Below, one piece after another: positions 8,591 through 57,879 of a stretch of DNA of 64,000 bases. The position numbers were made by a program, and so were the translations under genes. Location of the stretch: positions 682,001 through 746,000 of the forward strand of contig NZ_QYUM01000004.1 of assembly GCF_003590775.1 (NCBI RefSeq), written 5' to 3'. The notes below the pieces were generated by a model, which was not told where the DNA came from, made no database searches, and worked only from the letters and a program-made list of their open reading frames with translations. Each line of letters begins with the position of its first letter. Within the stretch, counting starts at the first letter, position 1. Source of the stretch: Sphingomonas cavernae (GTDB lineage: Bacteria; Pseudomonadota; Alphaproteobacteria; Sphingomonadales; Sphingomonadaceae).

Positions 8591-10851
8591 TCCGCAGCCT
8601 CCTCCAGCCCCTCGGGGGGCATGTTGTGGCCGAGCAGGCGCAGCACGTCCGCTGCACTGTCGACCACGTTGGAGCCAGGACCATAAATCCCCGCGACGCC
8701 CGCCGCACGCAGAAAGTCATAATCCTGTGCGGGGATCACGCCGCCCGCCACAACCTTGATGTCGCTGCGGCCCGCATCCCTGAGCAGCTTGATGAGTTCG
8801 GGGATCAGCGTCTTGTGCCCTGCGGCGAGGCTCGATGCGCCGACCACGTCGACGTCCTTGTCGAGCGCCAGCGCCAACGCCTCCTGCGGCGTCTGGAAGA
8901 GCGGACCGCTGACGACCTCGAAACCCATGTCGGAATAGGCCGACGCGATCACATTGGCGCCGCGGTCATGCCCGTCCTGCCCCATCTTGGCGACGAGCAT
9001 GCGCGGCTTGCGCCCCTTGCGGCGCGTAACCGCCTCGACGCCGTCGACGACACGCGCCCAGCGATCGTCACCGCCATAGGCGCCACCGTAGACGCCCTTC
9101 ACCGGCGTCGGGACGGTGCCATAGCGCCCGAACACATCCTCCATCGCCGCCGAAATCTCGCCGAGCGTCGCGCGCTGCCGGGCGGCCTCGACCGCGAGTG
9201 CAAGGAGATTGGTCTCCACACCCCGTTCGGGCTGAGCTTGTCGAAGCCCTGCCCCTACTGCTTCCCCAGATGAAGAAAAGGACGGCCCTTCGACAGGCTC
9301 AGGGCGAACGGAAGGGGTGGGAGCCCCGGCGCCAAGTCGCGCCCCTTCGCGCAATGCATCGAGCGCGGCCTGGCACTTCGCGTCGTCACGGCTCGCCTTC
9401 ATCTTGTTGATGCGCGCGATCTGCGATTCACGAACCGCGACGTTGTCGACGTCGAGGATGTCGATCGGCTCTTCTTCCTTGAGCCGGTATTTGTTGACCC
9501 CGACGATCACATCCTCAGCGCGGTCGACGCGTGCCTGACGGGCGGCTGCGGCTTCCTCGATCATCGCCTTGGGCCAGCCCTTCGCCACGGCTTTCGCCAT
9601 GCCGCCCTCGGCCTCGACGCGCTCGATGATCTCCCACGCCTTGTCGTAGAGCTCCTGCGTCAGCGCCTCGACATAATAGCTGCCGCCCAGCGGATCGACG
9701 ACATTGCACATGCCCGTCTCTTCCTGGATGACAATTTGGGTGTTCCGCGCGATCCGCGCCGAGAAGTCGGTGGGCAGCGCGATCGCCTCATCGAGCGCGT
9801 TGGTGTGGAGCGACTGCGTTCCCCCCAGCATCGCCGCCATCGCCTCGATCGTCGTGCGCATCACGTTGTTGTACGGGTCTTGCTCGGTCAGCGACACGCC
9901 CGAGGTCTGGCAGTGCGTCCTGAGCATCTTGGAGCGCTCGTCCTTGGCTCCCAGCTCGGTCATCACGCGGTGCCACAGCTTGCGCGCGGCGCGGAGCTTC
10001 GCCACCTCCATGAAGAAGTTCATGCCGATCGCGAAGAAGAAGCTGAGGCGCCCCGCGAACTTGTCGAGGTCGAGCCCGCTCGCCATCGCGGCGCGCGCAT
10101 ATTCCTTGCCGTCGGCGATCGTGAAGGCGAGCTCCTGAAGCTGCGTCGCCCCCGCTTCCTGCATGTGATAGCCGGAAATCGAAATGCTGTTGAACTTCGG
10201 CATGTGCGCCGACGTGTAGCCGATGATATCCGAGATGATCCGCATGCTCGGCTCGGGCGGGTAGATATAGGTGTTGCGGACCATGAACTCCTTCAGGATG
10301 TCGTTCTGGATCGTGCCGTCCAGCTTCTCCTGCGGAACCCCCTGCTCCTCGCCAGCGACGATGAAGAAGGCGAGGATCGGGATCACAGCGCCGTTCATCG
10401 TCATCGAAACCGACATTTCACCCAAGGGAATGCCGTCGAACAGGATCTTCATGTCCTCGACGCTGTCGATCGCGACGCCCGCCTTGCCGACATCGCCCGT
10501 CACGCGCGGGTGATCGCTGTCATAGCCGCGGTGCGTGGCAAGGTCGAAGGCGACCGAAAGCCCCTTCTGCCCCGCAGCCAGATTGCGGCGGTAAAAGGCG
10601 TTCGATTCCTCGGCGGTCGAAAAGCCTGCATATTGCCGGATCGTCCAGGGGCGCCCCGCATACATCGACGCGCGCACGCCGCGTGTGAAGGGACCGAAGC
10701 CAGGCAAACCGGTCTCGATGCCGTCCACGTCCTCCGCCGTGTAGAGCGGCTTCACCGTGATGCCCTCGGGCGTGTGCCAGTTCAGGTCCTTGCCCTTGAC
10801 CTCCTTGGTGGCAAGGGCTTCCCAATTCTGGAGCGTCGGCTTGTCAGTCAT
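8587..10851 (-). CDS. scpA: Methylmalonyl-CoA mutase, adenosylcobalamin-dependent, with in-frame repeat insertion
   Basis: Converts (R)-methylmalonyl-CoA to succinyl-CoA. The 754-residue chain has the substrate TIM barrel first ([11 protein letters not shown] near residue 30, [43 protein letters not shown]) and the B12-binding domain last, with the base-off motif GQDGHDRG and GASSLAAGH. The linker between them, about residues 507-545, contains extra Pro/Glu/Gly-rich sequence (VRPEPVEG ... LRQAQPERG). It is encoded by a palindromic repeat (9221-9318) and is not expected in this family. The frame stays open and the flanking family motifs are intact, so the enzyme is probably functional. ATGA overlap with the next gene; 2-bp gap to the enoyl-CoA hydratase upstream. 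Confidence 0.95.
9221..9318. repeat. Palindromic repeat inserted inside the mutase coding sequence
   Basis: Left half (from CCCCGTTCGGGCTGAGCTTG at 9221) and right half (CTTCGACAGGCTCAGGGCGA region, to about 9318) are imperfect inverted copies that pair as CCGTTCG..CTGAGC.TGTCGAAG. The whole unit is translated in frame on the minus strand. It adds about 35-40 residues at the linker between the catalytic and cobalamin domains. Confidence 0.8.
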
Positions 10852-10853
10852 CG

Positions 10854-11645
10854 TCAGCGTCCCTTGAATTCCGCCTTGCGCTTCTGGAGGAAGGCAGCCG
10901 TTCCCTCGGCCGCATCCTCGCTGTCGCCCGCCTTGTTCTGCCGCGCCGCTTCAGCAGCCATGGCGGCGGCGTAATCCTGTTCTAACGCATCGGCGATGCC
11001 CTTGCGCATCAGCCCCAGCGCAAAGGTCGGCCCCGCCGCCAGCCGCGCCGCCAGCAACCGCGCCTCTTCCATCAGCACCGCATCCTCGATCGCCTTGTAG
11101 ATCAGCCCCCAGCTCTCGGCCTTCTCCGCCGGGATCCGCTCGCCGAGCATCATCATCTCCATGGCGCGCGCCTTGCCCACCAGCCGCGACAGCATCCAGG
11201 TCGCACCGCCATCAGGGACCAGCCCGATATTGACGAAGGCCTGCAGGAAATAGGCCGACTTGCCCGCGAGCACGAAATCGCCCGCCAGCGCCAGCGAGCA
11301 GCCGATCCCCGCTGCCGGCCCGTTGACCGCGGTTACGATCGGGATCGGCGCCTGCGAAAGCGCAACCATCGTCGGGTTGTAGCTGGCGGTAAGCGCTGCC
11401 TTGGCGCGTGCGCCGCCCGTGATCGGCGACTCTCCGTCACGCCCCTGAAGATCTGCGCCCGAGCAGAAGGCGCGCCCCTCGCCCGTGATCAGCAGCGCGC
11501 GGATGCCTTTTTCCTGAGCACCGTCGAGCACATCGCGGATCTCGTCGAACATCTGCGGCGGCGCGGCATTGAGCCGATCGGGCCGGTTGAGCGTGATCGT
11601 CGCAACGCCGTCGGCGATGTCGAGGCGGATCGTTTCGTAGGTCAA
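10854..11645 (-). CDS. Enoyl-CoA hydratase/isomerase family protein
   Basis: A 263-residue crotonase-fold enzyme, with oxyanion-hole segments [13 protein letters not shown] and [17 protein letters not shown] and the usual [14 protein letters not shown]. It is closest in style to PaaG-type isomerase/hydratases of aromatic or branched acyl-CoA breakdown; the exact substrate is not evident. The TTG at 11645 is chosen as start because GGAAGGA lies 7 bases upstream and family homology begins there. A longer frame upstream only reads through the adjacent repeat. It stops 2 bases before the mutase start, so it is cotranscribed with it. Confidence 0.88.
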
Positions 11646-11664
11646 AAGCGCGTCCTTCCCAATT

Positions 11665-11839
11665 ACCCTCTCCCTTGATGGGAGAGGGTTGCGAAGACTT
11701 GGCAGCTTGCTGCCTAGTCGTAGCTGGGTGAGGGTGACGCCGGGCATCAGCGCCCACGCCAACCATCACCCTCATCCAACTTCGCCTAACCGGCTTTGCC
11801 GGCAAGGCTTCGTATCCTTCTCCCATCAAGGGAGAAGGT
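11665..11839. repeat. Paired palindromic repeat, ACCCTCTCCC family
   Basis: Hairpin ACCCTCTCCC-TTGAT-GGGAGAGGGT at 11665-11689 and its partner ATCCTTCTCCC-ATCAA-GGGAGAAGGT at 11814-11839 flank about 120 bp that also holds small hairpins (GGCAGCTTGCTGCC, CCGGCTTTGCCGG). It lies between the epimerase and enoyl-CoA hydratase genes. Related copies are at 60201-60333 and 61481-61602. Confidence 0.8.
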
Positions 11840-11844
11840 CGGGG

Positions 11845-12267
11845 TCAATGCCCGCCGTCCTTCGGCGTCTCCATCAACTCGACCAGCACCCCGCCCATAT
11901 CCTTGGGATGGACGAAGATCACCGGCGTGCCATGCGCGCCGATGCGCGGCTCACCGAGCACCTTGGCGCCCTTGGCCTCCATCTCGGCCTTGGCGGCATG
12001 GATATCGTGTACTTCGAAGCAGACATGGTGCTGCCCGCCCAGCGGGTTCTTCTCGAGGAACTTCAGGATGGGCGAATTCTCGCCCAGCGGCTCGATCAGC
12101 TCGATCTGGCTGTTGGGCGTATCGACGAAGCACACGCGCACCCCCTGCGGCGGCAGGTCAAAGGGCTCGTGGATCTTGGTCGCGCCCATCAGGTCGCGGT
12201 AGAGCGCGATCGACTTCTCGATCGAGGGCGTCGCAACGCCGACATGGTTGAGGCGGCCGATGGTCAT
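11845..12267 (-). CDS. mce: Methylmalonyl-CoA epimerase
   Basis: Interconverts (S)- and (R)-methylmalonyl-CoA between carboxylase and mutase. The 140-residue protein is a vicinal-oxygen-chelate fold with the metal ligands expected for the family: His in LNHVGVAT (residue 8), His in GQHHVCFEV, and Glu in GVLVELME. It also has IELIEPLGENSPI, typical of the enzyme. It sits between pccB and the hydratase/mutase genes, with palindromic repeats on both sides. Confidence 0.95.
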   Translation of the reverse strand: MTIGRLNHVGVATPSIEKSIALYRDLMGATKIHEPFDLPPQGVRVCFVDTPNSQIELIEPLGENSPILKFLEKNPLGGQHHVCFEVHDIHAAKAEMEAKGAKVLGEPRIGAHGTPVIFVHPKDMGGVLVELMETPKDGGH

Positions 12268-51050: not shown

Positions 51051-51809
51051 TCACGCGCCTGCCCTTTCCGTAAACGTCATCGTACACGCGCCAGCCGCGC
51101 TGTCACCAGTCCCGATGTTGTTTTCGGAAAAACAGGCGCGTTTTTGGAGCGCGTGTGCGAAACGGTATCCCGCGCCCTTCACCGTTTCGATGAGCGGCTG
51201 ACCGAAACCGCGGTCGATCTTTGCGCGCAAACGGGACATGTGAACCTCCACCACATTCGTGCCCGGATCGAAGGAGAGGCGCCACACCGTCGCCAGCAGC
51301 GCACGCCGATCGAGGATCGCGCCCGGATGTCGCGCAAGGCACATCAGCAACTGGAACTCTCGCGGCAACAGGTGGATCTCACGATCGTCGCGCCAGACGC
51401 GGCGCTCGATCCTGTCGATCACCAGCCCGCCCGCTTCAGGCCGGTGCCCGCACGGAGCAGTCCGACGTGTCAGCCGGGTCGCGCGGAGCAACAGTTCTTC
51501 GGCAAGGCACCGGTGATCGACGACGTCGTCGGCGCCCGCACGCAACGCGCGCACGCGCGCTTCGGGAGTGGCGGCCGTGGTCACGACGATAACGGGCAGG
51601 TTCGCGCCAATGGCGCGAAGCTGATCCAGTCGGTCGACAAAATCCGAATCGTCCAGCCCCAGCACCAGATCGAAACGCGTTCGAACGATATCGCGCAGCC
51701 ATTGCGGAGGTGGTGAGAACTGGACGGTGAAGCCGGGCGCCGAAGCAAGACCCTGGCCGATCATCGCCGCGCGGCCCTCGTCATTGCTGGCAACCAGAAT
51801 CTTGACCAT
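51051..51809 (-). CDS. OmpR-type winged-helix regulator with degenerate receiver
   Basis: 252 residues. An N-terminal receiver-like domain (VKILVASNDEGRAAMIGQGL ... FDLVLGLDDSD ... LPVIVVTTAA) is followed by a C-terminal OmpR/PhoB winged helix (IHLLPREFQLLMCLARHPGA ... VVEVHMSRLRAKIDRGFG ... IETVKGAGYRF). The receiver lacks the usual acidic pair (here ND) and the conserved Lys after GADDVVDH, so phosphorylation is doubtful. No histidine kinase is adjacent. It follows the HEAT/cupin-like operon by 84 bp and probably regulates it. Start at 51809 by domain fit. Confidence 0.85.
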   Translation of the reverse strand: MVKILVASNDEGRAAMIGQGLASAPGFTVQFSPPPQWLRDIVRTRFDLVLGLDDSDFVDRLDQLRAIGANLPVIVVTTAATPEARVRALRAGADDVVDHRCLAEELLLRATRLTRRTAPCGHRPEAGGLVIDRIERRVWRDDREIHLLPREFQLLMCLARHPGAILDRRALLATVWRLSFDPGTNVVEVHMSRLRAKIDRGFGQPLIETVKGAGYRFAHALQKRACFSENNIGTGDSAAGACTMTFTERAGA

Positions 51810-51893
51810 TTTGACTGCAACCGCGCGCGCCTCCTGGGCCGTATGGCGCCCTTCATCGCACATGCGGGGGCATAGCGAGCGCAAGCGACTCCG

Positions 51894-52832
51894 TTATGGA
51901 TGCAAAAGCGCGCGATCGTTCGGCGGCCGGCCGGCGTGATCCATGTCGCGTAAGGCTCTGGCGCAGGCGCGACTGACGAACCGATTGCCGTTCGAGAGAC
52001 CGCGCGCATAGCATGCCGCGCGCGCAGTCGCGTCGGCTTCGGCGGAGGCCAGCGCTCGCCAGGCACTGAAGCGCACGCGGTCGCTCGGGTGATGCCCGGC
52101 AAAATGCGTCGCGATATCGAGCGCGTTGCCGTCACCGTAATGAACGCTGAGCGCGAGCAGCGCCTCGGTGGGCGCGCTGCTCAATATGCCGGCGATCTCG
52201 CCCTTGCCGACATTGAAGCGGTACTGGTCGAGCCAGATCTGTTCTGGCAGCGCCTGCACAATGTTGATCGACACCGACATCTCGTCGGCGGGAAGCTGGA
52301 GGTGTACGTCGCGGTGTGCCCGGTAGAGCATCGTCCGGCCCGGCGCGAGCCGCGACCGCTCGACGAAGCGCAGGTCGACTAGTTCACCGACGAAGCCGGT
52401 TACAGCGTCATGATCATATTCGTAATATTCGCTCCAGTAGCCGGGTCCCAGATAGCCGACGGTCAGAAACGAGAAATTATGATCGTGCGGCACCCCGTAG
52501 AAGAAAGGCGCAGTCCCGCTGGCGCGCGACACGCTGTCGTGACTGGCGGGCCAAAAATTGGCGCGGATGAAATATTTGGCCGACGCCCTGTGCAGCATGA
52601 TCACCTGCGCGCCATAACGGTTGCTCGCCAACTGGTTCCGGCAGCGCGTCTTGAGCTCGCCGATCGCGATGTCGGTCAGAAAATGACGATTGTTCGCGAG
52701 CTTGCGCAGCGACGCCGCGGCGGCGGTGAAGCTCTCCTCATCGCGCGGATCGAAACCGTCTTCGTCCAGACAGGTGATCAGCTCCCCCAGGTCGATCGCG
52801 TCGTCGGTGTCGACTTCGATCAGGCGCGGCAT
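51894..52832 (-). CDS. Cupin-like plus HEAT-repeat protein, function unknown
   Basis: 312 residues. The central region (about 75-190) looks like a small beta-sandwich with possible metal ligands His116 and His118 (PHDHNFSFLTVGYLGPGYW), an acidic/aromatic follow-up (WSEYYEYD), and His173/His177 after APGR (LYRAHRDVHLQLP), the order of cupin sites. The last 90 residues form two or three HEAT-like helix pairs (VRFSAWRALASAEADATARA, FVSRACARALRDMDH). It overlaps the preceding gene by 13 bases. Some database entries for such proteins may be named transposase without basis. No enzyme activity is assigned. Confidence 0.7.
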   Translation of the reverse strand: MPRLIEVDTDDAIDLGELITCLDEDGFDPRDEESFTAAAASLRKLANNRHFLTDIAIGELKTRCRNQLASNRYGAQVIMLHRASAKYFIRANFWPASHDSVSRASGTAPFFYGVPHDHNFSFLTVGYLGPGYWSEYYEYDHDAVTGFVGELVDLRFVERSRLAPGRTMLYRAHRDVHLQLPADEMSVSINIVQALPEQIWLDQYRFNVGKGEIAGILSSAPTEALLALSVHYGDGNALDIATHFAGHHPSDRVRFSAWRALASAEADATARAACYARGLSNGNRFVSRACARALRDMDHAGRPPNDRALLHP

Positions 52833-53782
52833 CGCGACTTCGGCTGGTTGTCCGAATTGCGCGCCGCGAAGGTTTCGAGCGTCGCGTGCGCCGCAAGCCG
52901 CACCTCATCATGCGGATCATGCGTCGCCATCCGTCGCAGCAGCGGCAGCGCGGCGGCCGGCGCCAACGCAAGATACTCGCGCATCGCATGCCAGCGCAGG
53001 AAATGGGTTTCGCTGGCTATGGCATCATGGAAGCAGTCTGCCGCATCCTGCCGCCCGGCGATACGCAGCAAGGTCAGCAGCATCTGGCTGCGTGAAGCTG
53101 CTTCGTCATTGGATGCGACACCCACAAGTGCGCCGGACGCTGCGTCATATTCGCGCCGCATCGCCGCTTGCCCGCGCTTCAGTGTAACGCGCAGCATGAC
53201 GATATCGGATTCGCAGGATTCGATCACAAAGCCACGGCTGCGCCCGTCAACGATCAGCACGTCATCGTCGCGGCACGCCTGCGGTGCGCCCGATGCAGAA
53301 CATGTCGCGCCCTCGCAATGCCAGAAACGCAGCCTTGCTCCCCCCGCCCGGTGAAATCGGATCACAGACACCGCGCCTGAAGTGCCCACCGAACCCGCGC
53401 CATGGCCCAGCGCCTTGCGCGCCGCGATCCTGTCCGCCGAGGCTACGCTCAGCGTGACGATGGCTACCGGGTGATCGAGGATCACGATGCCCCGGTGAAC
53501 CTCGTCATCGATCGTCGCGCAGGGCGGATCGAAGAACGGCTCCTGCTCCAGCATGGCGCCGAGATCGGCCATCAGCCCGGCAACCGGATCGCCCTTGGCC
53601 AAGTGCGTGACGATCGTTCCCGCCATGACTTCGACATCGGCCACAGCACATTCATCGAGCAAGTGTCTCAGCGCCTCCCGCGCCGGATGATCTCGCCACA
53701 TCATCGCGGCGCGGTGGCGGGCGGCGGTCAGTGCGACCCGGTCCTTCGCCAGCCTGGCGAGCAGTTCGCTGCGGTTGCGCAC
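52820..53782 (-). CDS. HEAT-repeat protein with N-terminal beta domain, function unknown
   Basis: 320 residues. A helical start (ELLARLAKDRVALTAARHRA), a middle beta-rich region (VHRGIVILDHPVAIVTLSV ... RLRFWHCEGATCSASG ... VIESCESDIVMLRVTL) and a C-terminal HEAT-like helix array from about 225 (RSQMLLTLLRIAGRQDAADC, LRWHAMREYLALAPAAALPL, DEVRLAAHATLETFAARN). The layout matches that of the next gene, so the two may be distant paralogues. Starts with GTG 53782, 7 bases after the stop of the 50-residue peptide, without its own ribosome-binding site, implying coupled translation. Confidence 0.68.
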   Translation of the reverse strand: MRNRSELLARLAKDRVALTAARHRAAMMWRDHPAREALRHLLDECAVADVEVMAGTIVTHLAKGDPVAGLMADLGAMLEQEPFFDPPCATIDDEVHRGIVILDHPVAIVTLSVASADRIAARKALGHGAGSVGTSGAVSVIRFHRAGGARLRFWHCEGATCSASGAPQACRDDDVLIVDGRSRGFVIESCESDIVMLRVTLKRGQAAMRREYDAASGALVGVASNDEAASRSQMLLTLLRIAGRQDAADCFHDAIASETHFLRWHAMREYLALAPAAALPLLRRMATHDPHDEVRLAAHATLETFAARNSDNQPKSRCRA

Positions 53783-53789
53783 GTTCGTA

Positions 53790-53942
53790 TCAGCCGGTGG
53801 GCGCCGGCTCTGACAGCACGATGCCGATCACTATGCTGAAGACCATGTCGCCGGCGACCTCGACCTGATGCATCGCGCCATACAATCCCACCGGTGTCGA
53901 AAGCTCGGCCATGTCTCGAATATCAAAGATCGGCTGCTGCAT
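53790..53942 (-). CDS. 50-residue peptide at the head of the HEAT/cupin operon
   Basis: ATG 53942 is preceded by a strong AAGGGGGA ribosome-binding site, 6 bases away. The N-terminal half is acidic (MQQPIFDIRDMAELSTP), the C-terminal half hydrophobic (VFSIVIGIVLSEPAPTG) and the peptide has no cysteine. Size, position as first gene and tight coupling to two unknown proteins suggest a precursor or secreted/structural peptide, but no leader motif of a known modified-peptide class is visible. Confidence 0.62.
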   Translation of the reverse strand: MQQPIFDIRDMAELSTPVGLYGAMHQVEVAGDMVFSIVIGIVLSEPAPTG

Positions 53943-54088
53943 TTCATATCCCCCTTGCCCGCTCGCGGATGCCGCAAAGAGCTAAGACGTCGTCGGCGCG
54001 GTGGGAAATTAAATGCGTGTAATGTTGCGTTGCGACCTCGGCCGGGGCGAGCTAGGGCGGGACGTGGATAGGTTTCAGGTGACAACGG

Positions 54089-54517
54089 ATGAGCAGCATG
54101 GCCACCGAATTCGACCCCGGGCTCTTCGTAAGCACTTTGGGACAGCACGGGCACAATGGCCGGCTAGGCATCCGCTATCTCGAGCACGGCGCCGACTCGT
54201 GCACGCTTGTCCTGCCCTATGACTCCGGCCTTGCGGGCGATCCGGAAACGGGCATTCTCGCGTCAGGTCCGATCGTGACGCTGATGGACATGGCGACCAG
54301 CATTTCGATCTGGGTGCGCTCCGGCATGGTCCGGCCGCAGGCGACGCTCGATCTGCGCGTCGACTATCTCCGTCCCGCGACGCCTGGAAAGGCGGTGGTC
54401 GGTCGCGGCGAATGCTATCGGATCACGCGCAATGTCGCGTTCGTTCGTGGCCAGGCGCATGACGGCGATCCCGATCATCCGATCGCGCATGCGGCCGGCA
54501 CCTATATGTTCCTGTGA
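54089..54517 (+). CDS. PaaI/hot-dog thioesterase
   Basis: 142 residues of the hot-dog fold. Visible are the N-terminal HNGRLGIRYLEHGADSCTLV, GPIVTLMDMATSISIWV as the central helix with the family-type Asp, and VDYLRPATPGKAVVGRGECY. It probably hydrolyses acyl-CoA esters. Divergent from the peptide operon; followed after 10 bases by a second thioesterase-type gene on the same strand, so the pair is one unit. Confidence 0.85.
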   Translation: MSSMATEFDPGLFVSTLGQHGHNGRLGIRYLEHGADSCTLVLPYDSGLAGDPETGILASGPIVTLMDMATSISIWVRSGMVRPQATLDLRVDYLRPATPGKAVVGRGECYRITRNVAFVRGQAHDGDPDHPIAHAAGTYMFL

Positions 54518-54527
54518 GATTCCGGAA

Positions 54528-54914
54528 ATGAAGACGCTTCCGCCCTATGCGCAGACCCTCGGGCTTTCGATCGCCGATACCGAAGGCGGTGTGCCCGTGC
54601 TCGCCATGGCCTTCTCCGACGATGTGCTGGGCCGGCCCGGCTTCATTCACGGCGGGGCGCTTGGCGGTATGCTCGAAATGGCGGCGATCATGGCGCTGCA
54701 CTGCGAGTTCGCCGAAGATGAAAAACCGCGCTTCAAGCCGATCAACATCACGGTCGACTTTATGCGCGGTGGCCGCGACAAGGAGACGCGCGCGATCGGA
54801 GCCGTCACGCGCGTCGGTACACGGATCGCCAATGTCGAGGCGATCGCCTGGCAGGACGATCGCGAAAAGCCGATCGCCGCTGCCCGGATGAACATCCTGA
54901 TCGAGCGCGGGTGA
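54528..54914 (+). CDS. PaaI-family hot-dog thioesterase
   Basis: 128 residues with PGFIHGGALGGMLEMAAIMA, the family segment in which the catalytic acidic residue follows HGG, and INITVDFMRGGRDKETRAIG. Second member of a tandem pair of hot-dog genes, which could form a heteromeric thioesterase or a two-step scavenger. Start at 54528 by family N-terminus; only a weak GGA precedes it. Convergent with the TonB receptor. Confidence 0.85.
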   Translation: MKTLPPYAQTLGLSIADTEGGVPVLAMAFSDDVLGRPGFIHGGALGGMLEMAAIMALHCEFAEDEKPRFKPINITVDFMRGGRDKETRAIGAVTRVGTRIANVEAIAWQDDREKPIAAARMNILIERG

Positions 54915-54957: not shown

Positions 54958-57879
54958 TCAGAAGTTGAGCTTGGTTCCGACGAAATAGGACCTCCCGAAC
55001 ACGTCGTAGAAACCCGCAATCGTTGTCTGCGCCTGCGATCCCGTCGAGTTGTCGGGAAAGATCGGCGGTTTGCGGTCAAACAGGTTGTTTACGCCGAAAT
55101 AGAGCTGCGCCTGGTCAGTCACGTCGTAGCTCAGGCGGATATTGTGGTACGCCGCATCGCTGATCTTGGGAAACTGATCGCTGATGAACGGGCTCGCCTT
55201 GGTCTTGGGGATGTACCGCAGCGTATAATTCATCCCGAAGCCGTTTGACCGGAACATGACGTTGCCCGTCGCCTGCCAGCGCAGGAACCCTTGGGTCGTG
55301 GTGTCACCGCCCGCATAACCGTCGAGCTTTGTCACCTCGCCCGTCGGCTCGGTCTGCTCGGCCTTGTCGTAAATCGTTGAGAGCAGTTGGACCGTGAGCT
55401 GGCTGGGATCGGGCCCGAGCGATATGCCCGGATCGAAGCTGTAGCTCGCCTCGACGTCGATCCCCTTCACCACGAAGGTGTTCACGTTGAGCAACTGGTC
55501 GTTGATCGCGGTGAGCGCGAAATTGCCGTTCACCTCGGGCCTGAAGCCGCGAACGATGTCGTTGCAGAACTGGCGGTCGGTTGTGTCGTAGCATAGGTTG
55601 ACCTTGTTCTGACGGCCGACGGTGTTGATAAAGCCGTCGATTTCGATCTCGAAGCGGTCGACCGTGAGCGAGAAGCCGGGCAGGAAGGTGGGCGTGAAGA
55701 CCAGGCCATAGGTCCAGGTCTTCGCTTCTTCGGGCTCCAGATCCGGGTTGCCGCCGATCGTGCCGCCAACACCCTGAAGGACAAGGAGCGGCGGGTTATA
55801 GTCGGCGGGCACGCCATCGGTCAGGCAGTTCGCCGCACGCGTTGCGTTCGCGTTGCGGTTGATGATGGTGCAGGGATCCTGGACGTTGCCGAAGGTCTGA
55901 CCGATGCCGCCAAGCTCACCCGGCGTCGGCGCACGGACCGCCTTCGCCCGGATCGCGCGGAAGCGCAGCCCCTCGACCGGTTCCCAGGTACCGCCGAGCT
56001 TCCAGGTTTCGTAACTGCTCCCCCGACCCGGATCGGAAAGACGGAACGCGCCCTCAAGCGAGAGATCATGGGCAAAGGGCGCATCGCGCAGCACCGGCAC
56101 GATCAGTTCGGCATAGGCCTCCCTGGTCTTGCTCTTGACGAACTCGGTGTCGCCGATCTGGTTGCTCGTGGTCAGGCCGAGCGAGATAACCTCGTCCACA
56201 TCCTGGAAGCCCGAGAAGGTCCGATATTCGACGCCCGCTGCAAGGCTGACGGCGCCCGCCGGCAGATCGAAAAGCGTGCCCGACACATAGGCGCTGAAAT
56301 CATGCAGCGTGCTGATGCCGTTCTGCCCGGCCTTGAGAGTGAGATAGTCGATCTGCGCCTGGGTATAGGGCGCGAAGGGATTGACGGGAACGCAGCCCTG
56401 GGCGCGCGCGCCTGCATCGATGCAGCGGAATTGGCCCGGACGGGCGGGATCCGCCTCGACGCGCAAGCCGTGATAGAGCCGGTCGGTGCCGACAAGCCCG
56501 TCGGTGATGCTTTCCAGCTCGGTGCGGCCGTAAACATAGGACGCTTCCCAGTTCCAGTTGCGCGAGCCAAGCTCGAAATCGCCCTTGAGCCCGACCAGAG
56601 CGCGGACCGTGTTGCGTTCATTGGTCGCGCCGCGCCTGCCGAATTCGGAGAAGCGTTGGCTCCAGTTGATCCCGTTCGCGATCTGCGTGGGAGTGAGCAG
56701 CGCACGCTGTGCCGGCGTCGTCGCAGCCAGAAAGAATGGATTGTTTACGGGAATCGTGATCGGCAGCCCGGGCACACCCGGCCCGCCACCGACGACATTG
56801 GAAGTCGTCTGGAAAGCTATCGCCTCGATCGGCGCGTTGGTCGACGAGCGCCCATAGTTGAATTCGGCGAAGGCATCGATCGAGTCGCTGATCGGATATT
56901 CGACCTCGGCCGCGAAGGTCAGGCGCTTGGTCGGAATGGCGAGCGTGCGCTCGGGATTGCGGTTGAAACCGTCTCTCGCGATGTCGAAGCGGCGCAGCGC
57001 GCCGGTCTGCAGATCGCGCGTGAAATTGGTGGTTCCAAGGAAGAAATTGCCCCCCAGGCCAACGCCTGAAAGCGGCGGCGCGCCGGTGATGCCGGTACCG
57101 GGCGCGCGCACCGGCCCTTCGGCCGGATTGTTGTAGCGGATGTCGGTGTTGCAGACATAGGCGTCGGCGCAGCTCACCAGACCTTCATAGGTATATTGGG
57201 TGGTGAACAGGAAATGCCCGCCATCGCCCATGTCGCCGCCAAACATGACATAAGCGGAGGGATTCTTGTTGTACGTTTCTTCCGCGATGCCGTAGCTGAC
57301 GCCGACCTCGAGCCCGCGAAAATTGCTCTTGGTGATGATGTTGACGACGCCCGCCACGGCGTCAGCGCCATAGATCGCGGATGCACCGCCCGTGATGACC
57401 TCAAGCCGTTCGATATTCGCGGTCGGGAGCGTGTTGAAATCGACCGATGTGCTAAGCGGCGTTCCGCCGGGAACGCGGCGTCCGTTTATCAGCACCACAC
57501 TGCGAAGCGCGCTCAGGTTGCGGAGGTTGGTCAAGTTAAGCCCCGAAGCTGCGGAGCCCGAAAAGGACGAGCTGGCGCGCCCGTTGCCGAACGAGGGCGC
57601 GAACTGCGGCAACGAGTTGGCGATGTCCGCGATATTCTCGAAACCCTGCTGTTCCAGCCGATCCGCGCCCACGACGAGCGTGGGCACGCTATTGTCCAGG
57701 TTCGAGCGCGCGATGCGAGAGCCGGTGACAATGATCGCCTCATCGGCCGATGCATCCGCCGCCTCCCCGGCAGGAACTGCCGCTGCGTCTTGAGCGGCCG
57801 CCGGAACGGCGGACATAAGGCCGAGCGCGAGCGGCGCAACGCCTGCATAGAATCGAGCATATTTGGTGAACCTGGCCAC
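54958..57879 (-). CDS. TonB-dependent outer-membrane receptor (large)
   Basis: 973 residues from GTG 57879: signal peptide ending around residue 30 (VPAAAQD), TonB-box/plug region EAIIVTGSRIARSNLDNSVP, plug domain with VVLINGRRVPGGTP and TGGASAIYGADAVAGVVNII, then a long barrel ending in the canonical aromatic residue (YFVGTKLNF). The VTGSRI/GADAVAGV style is that of the sphingomonad/xanthomonad receptors for complex organic substrates. A strong stem-loop occupies the leader just upstream of the GGGGGG ribosome-binding site. Probably imports the substrate of the adjacent acyl-CoA genes; inferred. Confidence 0.93.
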   Translation of the reverse strand: MARFTKYARFYAGVAPLALGLMSAVPAAAQDAAAVPAGEAADASADEAIIVTGSRIARSNLDNSVPTLVVGADRLEQQGFENIADIANSLPQFAPSFGNGRASSSFSGSAASGLNLTNLRNLSALRSVVLINGRRVPGGTPLSTSVDFNTLPTANIERLEVITGGASAIYGADAVAGVVNIITKSNFRGLEVGVSYGIAEETYNKNPSAYVMFGGDMGDGGHFLFTTQYTYEGLVSCADAYVCNTDIRYNNPAEGPVRAPGTGITGAPPLSGVGLGGNFFLGTTNFTRDLQTGALRRFDIARDGFNRNPERTLAIPTKRLTFAAEVEYPISDSIDAFAEFNYGRSSTNAPIEAIAFQTTSNVVGGGPGVPGLPITIPVNNPFFLAATTPAQRALLTPTQIANGINWSQRFSEFGRRGATNERNTVRALVGLKGDFELGSRNWNWEASYVYGRTELESITDGLVGTDRLYHGLRVEADPARPGQFRCIDAGARAQGCVPVNPFAPYTQAQIDYLTLKAGQNGISTLHDFSAYVSGTLFDLPAGAVSLAAGVEYRTFSGFQDVDEVISLGLTTSNQIGDTEFVKSKTREAYAELIVPVLRDAPFAHDLSLEGAFRLSDPGRGSSYETWKLGGTWEPVEGLRFRAIRAKAVRAPTPGELGGIGQTFGNVQDPCTIINRNANATRAANCLTDGVPADYNPPLLVLQGVGGTIGGNPDLEPEEAKTWTYGLVFTPTFLPGFSLTVDRFEIEIDGFINTVGRQNKVNLCYDTTDRQFCNDIVRGFRPEVNGNFALTAINDQLLNVNTFVVKGIDVEASYSFDPGISLGPDPSQLTVQLLSTIYDKAEQTEPTGEVTKLDGYAGGDTTTQGFLRWQATGNVMFRSNGFGMNYTLRYIPKTKASPFISDQFPKISDAAYHNIRLSYDVTDQAQLYFGVNNLFDRKPPIFPDNSTGSQAQTTIAGFYDVFGRSYFVGTKLNF

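Follow-up and report, generated by a model that had tools for sequence, protein, structure and literature searches.

What might a 50-residue peptide gene be doing at the head of a compact operon in Sphingomonas cavernae, directly ahead of two HEAT-repeat proteins and a regulator? The operon lies in a window of 64,000 nucleotides (contig NZ_QYUM01000004.1, positions 682,001 to 746,000 of the forward strand), and its genes are called here PEP, HEATA, HEATB and REG. It probably encodes a system for a ribosomally synthesised and post-translationally modified peptide (RiPP), in which PEP would be a precursor oxidised by HEATB with the help of HEATA. The evidence comes from the conservation of the peptide, from the folds predicted for HEATA and HEATB, and from the genes that relatives carry.

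All four genes are on the minus strand and closely packed: seven bases separate the PEP stop codon from HEATA, HEATA and HEATB overlap by 13 bases, and REG begins nine bases after HEATB. An earlier, sequence-only reading of this DNA had given the compact operon, its seven-base gap, the GTG start of HEATA and the 13-base overlap exactly. That overlap is the commonest HEATA/HEATB spacing among relatives (70 of 138 loci) and is present even on an Alteromonas plasmid. Pfam returns only weak HEAT matches for HEATA and HEATB and none for PEP; in NCBIfam, PEP and HEATB have no match at E<=1 and HEATA has a chance-level match only.

PEP is a real gene under purifying selection. When 43 non-overlapping pairs of relatives are pooled, the ratio of nonsynonymous to synonymous change (dN/dS) is 0.24 for PEP and 0.19 for HEATB, rough figures since synonymous differences are near saturation (proportion of synonymous differences, pS, ~0.54). 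With 21 peptides from the same loci as its seed, a profile recovers a small open reading frame (ORF) around HEATB in 136 of the 142 loci when the cut-off is permissive; 125 of these matches reach E<=1e-3 and 11 lie above it. Peptide starts were chosen by script. In 128 of the 136 this ORF ends 0.86-1.11 kb ahead of the HEATB start. Two loci without a profile match (L084, L076) have a fitting small ORF by eye, and L150 and L167 end at a contig edge. The 142 loci include one duplicate (L035 = L045); two of 144 (L173, L174) were left out, no HEATB having been found in them. A chance small ORF was considered as an explanation of PEP and rejected, given the family matches across loci and genomes and the dN/dS of 0.24.

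The arrangement of PEP with HEATB is far beyond chance. Among 397 genomes of the same family, HEATB occurs in 137 and in 46 of 96 genera, in some cases as fragments (at least G192, G292 and G396), and the PEP profile matches 131 at E<=0.01. Both are found in 126 genomes, HEATB alone in 11, PEP alone in five and neither in 255 (Fisher p ~5e-83, uncorrected for shared ancestry). Most of the 11 genomes with HEATB and no PEP match have a weak or by-eye peptide, and three of the five PEP-only matches (G041, G207, G235) are weak and do not look like real members. The sequence-only reading had proposed a peptide-centred system and named two findings that would speak against it: a peptide frame conserved without a bias to synonymous change, and HEAT genes found always without the peptide. 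The ratio of 0.24 is the opposite of the first, and the presence of PEP in 126 of the 137 HEATB genomes disposes of the second; the peptide is conserved, constrained and linked to HEATB.

The candidate enzyme of the pair is HEATB. Its AlphaFold2 model, built with 97 aligned relatives, has a mean pLDDT (predicted local distance difference test) of 94.6. Compared with the Protein Data Bank (PDB) by VIA-align, it finds thiol dioxygenases at the top (4tlf: Z 13.6, root-mean-square deviation (rmsd) 3.4, 162 residues aligned), and Foldseek points to a cupin fold of the same kind (E 3.8e-7). VIA-align rows within one Z unit count as tied, and the rows cover the cupin parts only; the HEAT part is seen as helices of the model and in the weak Pfam matches. 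JmjC-type oxygenases (1vrb, 7zcc, 2xdv), which Foldseek gave at E ~1e-4, were set aside at TM scores of 0.2-0.3 and rmsd 14-17. A search by profile (alignment A1) for a solved relative of HEATB gave nothing convincing (best E 0.039), and no cysteine dioxygenase (CDO) profile was among the Pfam matches of the 97 HEATB members at E<=0.01.

His116 and His118 are kept in 97 of the 97 aligned HEATB relatives, His177 in 96 and Asp175 in 97. A profile comparison with 3-mercaptopropionate dioxygenase, a weak match (prob 13, E 0.002), aligns HDH with HDH and DVH with DVH. His116, His118 and His177 are accordingly predicted, on model and alignment, to form an intact three-His metal site of the oxygenase type. 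Of the four histidines that the sequence-only reading had set in cupin order, these three stand as the metal set, but His173 is less conserved (77 of 97). Thiol dioxygenases are defined in part by a Ser-His-Tyr triad. The segment SIHVY of 3-mercaptopropionate dioxygenase aligns in HEATB with S188-N190-V192, the Asn being kept in 96 of 97. Since the fold and the metal-site residues are retained and the whole active site is not, HEATB is not assigned to the thiol dioxygenases. Outside the class, HEATB is shorter in some relatives and its match ends ahead of the HEAT part, so that this part is not universal.

HEATA has a model of similar quality (mean pLDDT 93.6, 91 aligned relatives) and it too finds thiol dioxygenases at the top in VIA-align (4qm9: Z 11.6, rmsd 3.0, 146 aligned). 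Profile comparison of HEATA with HEATB by hhalign gives prob 95 and E 3.3e-8, and on these alignments and models the two are paralogues with the same cupin fold followed by HEAT-like helices. Structure prediction of both proteins had been suggested with the original observation of a beta-rich domain followed by a HEAT array in each. That shared layout holds, but the two beta-rich domains are one cupin fold, the first protein included, and the proteins are paralogous. No conserved His is present in HEATA at the places aligned to the HEATB metal ligands. As judged from alignment and model, HEATB and HEATA are thus an enzyme and a pseudoenzyme, the latter with a lost metal site. The alignments underlying these comparisons were thinned by hand, from 128 HEATB to 97 (A1), from 135 HEATA to 91 (A2) and from 135 peptides to 66 (A3).

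The limits of the unit are drawn by other genomes of the genus, in which HEATB was found in one of five searched. In three without it (G001, G002, G004) the thioesterase pair adjoins FadD with no match to the unit between, whilst a fourth (G003, locus L222) has a decayed copy at this place: PEP is split into two shifted pieces, HEATA and REG survive as fragments, and HEATB has no match. On these empty sites and the decayed copy, PEP, HEATA, HEATB and REG appear to be a unit gained or lost jointly, and such sites within one genus define its exact gene set. FadD, enoyl-CoA hydratase and the two thioesterases were considered as further parts and rejected, as thioesterase and FadD adjoin without the unit in three sister genomes. 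The features are collected below.

Coordinates, in window numbering, of the PEP-HEATA-HEATB-REG unit and of the sites discussed
Feature	Position	Strand	Remarks
PEP, 50-residue peptide gene	53942-53790	-	ATG start; AAGGGGGATATGAA ahead of it
PEP putative leader, residues 1-23	53874..53942	-	suggested by the Pro and Gly columns and by a relative with a double-glycine-like leader
PEP putative core, residues 24-50	53793..53873	-	EVAGDMVFSIVIGIV, of the EVGGxxCxG type
HEATA, 320 residues	53782-52820	-	GTG start; helical N-terminal part, ligand-less cupin of thiol-dioxygenase type, HEAT-like helices
HEATB, 312 residues	52832-51894	-	cupin of thiol-dioxygenase type (residues ~10-219) and HEAT-like helices; predicted Fe(II) oxygenase
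HEATB His116-Asp117-His118 codons	52479..52487	-	first two predicted metal ligands; aligned to HDH of 3-mercaptopropionate dioxygenase
HEATB His177 codon	52302..52304	-	third predicted metal ligand; aligned to DVH of 3-mercaptopropionate dioxygenase
REG, OmpR-type winged-helix regulator with degenerate receiver	51051..51884	-	start TTG 51884 or, likelier, ATG 51809
Limits of the unit	51051..54088	.	flanking thioesterase and FadD genes adjoin in three same-genus genomes

Beside the unit stand two divergent hotdog thioesterase genes (54089-54914, plus strand), whose link with it may be positional only; both recur close by in 17 of the 45 longer loci. Upstream lies a TonB-dependent receptor gene (54958-57879, minus strand), which is not a consistent neighbour in the compared loci at a strict cut-off.

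Outside the family the system is sparse. In the class, a HEATB profile search was positive for five of 385 genomes, four of these from the own family. In the phylum it was positive for 16 of 398; the own family accounts for 13, and one of the remaining three matches is weak and partial. In two other families of the phylum HEATB is present in six of 149 and six of 147 genomes. Named relatives inside the family include Sphingosinicella and Parasphingopyxis. Plasmid searches gave one record for HEATB and two for the relative from L249, one record being shared between both searches. On Vibrio plasmid p1-ED002 (L254, 19264-20820), HEATA- and HEATB-like genes too short for a HEAT part are followed by an ORF of 59 residues, with transposase and restriction-modification genes alongside.

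The sequence of PEP divides into a conserved first half and a second half of lineage-specific type, which may be an organisation into leader and core. The first half carries a motif of the type ID..xLPxLxT..G..GS, in the window FDIRDMAELSTPVGLYGA. One Pro and one Gly column within it are each kept in 128 of 135 peptides; in the window peptide the Pro is replaced by Ala. Hydrophobic residues mark the second half, and the mean net charge of the family is -4.6. A rough pattern sort of 135 cores gave 84 of a DD type, 28 with a VGG pattern and 23 others, some visibly DD-type peptides having fallen among the VGG and other groups. Many cores share D-D...Y-x-Y-[ED]. The EVGGxxC-like core is common to many peptides of the sphingomonad family, to the Alteromonas plasmid peptides and to G1140 from another family of the phylum; the window core, EVAGDMVFSIVIGIV, has Val where most of its type have Cys, and no Tyr. 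Cys is found in 33 of the 135 peptides, and the window PEP has none.

From the genes and their relatives we infer the modification, the product and the biological role of the system as follows. PEP, a constrained gene beside enzyme-like genes, would be a precursor, its conserved N-terminal half serving for recognition and its hydrophobic C-terminal half as the core. HEATB would act as a mononuclear three-His Fe(II) oxygenase of thiol-dioxygenase fold and use O2 to oxidise that hydrophobic core. HEATA, catalytically dead, would pair with HEATB and bind, present or shape the peptide, probably through its HEAT-like helices. REG may control the operon without phosphorylation, possibly responding to the product. 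In most peptides, that of the window included, Cys would not be the modified residue since they have none. Of the options offered by the sequence-only reading for this locus, peptide modification, secretion or signalling, the first is the best supported because HEATB keeps an intact three-His site of the oxygenase type.

Several observations weigh against PEP as an oxidised precursor. No modified peptide has been seen so far. The second half of PEP is barely more variable than the first (dN/dS 0.27 and 0.21 over the same 43 pairs), unlike many RiPP cores. The outer-sphere Ser-His-Tyr of thiol dioxygenases is replaced in HEATB by Ser-Asn-(Met/Val/Leu), and 102 of 135 linked peptides are free of Cys, so that ordinary thiol oxidation would not be the general reaction. 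The 45 longer loci contain no consistently linked transporter, and the C39 peptidase was unmatched in 42 of 65 carrier genomes, picked from the 137; a control search found it in eight of 14 named genomes. G232 has an intact-looking PEP with no HEAT genes in the surrounding 12 kb (L210, 6053-6307, minus strand), and G022, G192 and G292 keep PEP, altered partly in two of them, where HEATB is lost or in remnants. Of 15 more distant loci, 11 show a peptide candidate, the exceptions being L241, L243, L246 and L251, and 12 show a HEATA match, the exceptions here being L244, L245 and L248.

Much of this would suit an alternative in which PEP itself is never modified. It would instead belong permanently to a HEATA-HEATB oxygenase, as its small subunit or inhibitor, and the substrate of that oxygenase would be something else (a small thiol or a protein). 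PEP is constrained nearly as strongly as the enzyme (0.24 against 0.19), its second half too, and the lack of a consistently linked exporter or protease, together with the C39 count, is what would be expected of a subunit. The peptides of relatives speak differently. Two different peptide ORFs in tandem precede HEATA in L198 (in its second copy), in L240 and in L253, the Alteromonas plasmid. A double-glycine-like leader, ELTLEDAEFVSGG, is seen in the peptide of L249 and L250 only, and the L242 peptide contains a repeated segment, STLFIFAAR/STAFIFAAQ. L198 belongs to the own family, and L240, L242 and L249/L250 to two other families of the phylum; the leader, the repeat and the peptides of L193-L195, L253 and the 15 distant loci were picked by eye. 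Tandem peptides, leader and repeat fit a precursor better than a permanent subunit, and the intact-looking peptide of G232, with no HEAT gene nearby, is likewise awkward for a subunit. We consider the subunit alternative unlikely, though worth keeping in sight. In L244 and L245 (558-689) an ORF of 43 residues with a repeated MPPQ/LPPQ motif lies ahead of a cupin-only relative of HEATB, and is possibly another type of precursor.

A second alternative takes its strength from the genes around some of the relatives. In Thalassotalea (L036), PEP, HEATA and HEATB are clustered with ABC-2, HlyD-type and MacB-type genes, and the Alteromonas plasmid carries Yip1, HlyD and MacB-type genes, two peptides, HEATA, HEATB and ABC-2. 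In their subunit families these transporter gene sets resemble YknWXYZ of Bacillus. The latter is described as an efflux pump for the SDP toxin (PMC4887032). PEP might on this basis be an unmodified antimicrobial or killing peptide; HEATA and HEATB would then provide immunity or act as chaperones, and the metal site would be incidental. The three histidines of HEATB are all but invariant, which argues that the site is not incidental; the purifying selection on PEP and its net charge of -4.6 are unlike typical antimicrobial peptides, and the 45 longer loci have no transporter in consistent linkage. Such a function is improbable for the system. Quite remote is a third alternative, in which PEP would give rise to a small diffusible cofactor or metallophore, as do the precursors of pyrroloquinoline quinone (PQQ) and mycofactocin. 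The combination of a conserved short peptide, an oxygenase and wide retention is reminiscent of the logic of PqqA, and many cores have D-D...Y-x-Y-[ED], but the core type differs between lineages (84, 28 and 23 of 135), the window core has no Tyr, and neither a protease nor a consumer enzyme was seen as a consistent neighbour in the 45 longer loci.

If PEP is a modified precursor, export of its product may differ between lineages. In Thalassotalea and Alteromonas the peptides have the look of exported ones, made for killing or signalling. In sphingomonads, where the form is conserved and lacks a consistently linked exporter, a signal or a modified peptide of internal use seems closer. Secretion, as first suggested for this locus, finds support mainly in two gammaproteobacterial clusters; the longer loci have no consistent exporter. 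Within the sphingomonad family, L034 and L037 have outer-membrane, ABC and HlyD-like secretion-type genes ~1.4-2.5 kb downstream; these were recognised by eye, as were the neighbour labels in general (housekeeping, secretion-like) except where checked with Pfam. C39-type export as a general step was rejected on the 42 of 65 carriers without a match. The genome of the window has two C39 matches, both on another contig, where their neighbours give, by eye, the impression of secretion genes. One of its C39 peptidases stands alone (L205, contig C2, ~8700-12000) among genes that resemble a functional-amyloid operon.

REG has a C-terminal winged helix (Pfam Trans_reg_C, PF00486, E 1.1e-22). The phosphorylation strand of a receiver usually reads DLxLLD or similar. 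In REG, FDLVLGLDD stands at this place, with no Asp at the usual phosphorylation position by eye on the alignment, in agreement with the degenerate receiver first read from the sequence. REG homologues follow HEATB in 22 of the 142 loci, a count that takes in the window and a duplicate. In about 20 distinct loci the first suggestion of a non-phosphorylated regulator holds: seven of the homologues are too short for a receiver and, apart from that of L038, no phosphorylatable Asp was seen at the usual place in the others. In L038 the receiver looks intact and a kinase-like gene follows; this homologue may not be related. Other lineages have an upstream gene for a sigma factor of the extracytoplasmic function (ECF) type (cluster C17, seven of 45 longer loci, checked with Pfam in L032), and L036 has a LuxR-type gene. 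A regulator-binding repeat was sought ahead of PEP, and short repeats only, possibly due to chance, were found there.

It is attractive to consider that these genes represent a new RiPP class of Alpha- and Gammaproteobacteria, with an oxygenase of thiol-dioxygenase fold and HEAT-like helices, a pseudoenzyme partner and a hydrophobic-tailed precursor, its substrates mostly free of Cys; we hold the case for such a class to be evenly poised. If it is true, a fold used for the oxidation of small thiols has been turned to the oxidation of peptides. A common and long-retained sphingomonad operon would then make a modified peptide by means of an enzyme pair unnamed in Pfam and NCBIfam, adding a fold to the peptide-modifying oxygenases together with a clean example of an enzyme and its pseudoenzyme.

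A number of parallels can be drawn with known systems. PEP is like the SHP peptides of streptococci in its acidic-then-hydrophobic end and in the closeness of a regulator gene, but REG is of the OmpR type, not an Rgg, and there is no sign of secretion or re-import. The likeness to RiPP clusters goes further: a short precursor-like gene comes first, the genes of the putative modifying enzymes follow in tight or overlapping spacing, and some relatives add transporter genes, a second precursor-like gene in tandem or a leader of double-glycine-like type. To our knowledge, no enzyme of a known RiPP class is present in the unit. Peptide modification of the RiPP sort is a known kind of process, and an enzyme pair of this make-up was not found described for it: searches of the open-access literature aimed at the system, with subscription papers and preprints outside their reach, listed no report of a RiPP with HEAT-repeat cupins and no description of the system. 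The nearest published chemistry found is of a different kind. It is that of PbsQ, described as a cupin-like hydroxylase whose substrate is a ribosomal precursor peptide in a biphenomycin-like pathway, related to a JmjC-domain protein and accompanied by an MNIO and an arginase (PMC12257519), in contrast to the three-His, thiol-dioxygenase type of HEATB and its pseudoenzyme partner. A cluster of Nif11 domain and cupin with a putative epimerase (PMC10783134) also differs from the present system. Closest in structure are the thiol dioxygenases themselves, cysteine dioxygenase, 3-mercaptopropionate dioxygenase (4tlf, 3uss) and YubC (4qm9), which share the cupin fold and the HDH and DVH motifs with HEATB. 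HEATB parts from them in its Ser-Asn-(Met/Val/Leu) in place of Ser-His-Tyr, and adds to the common fold HEAT-like helices, a pseudoenzyme partner and a linked peptide gene.

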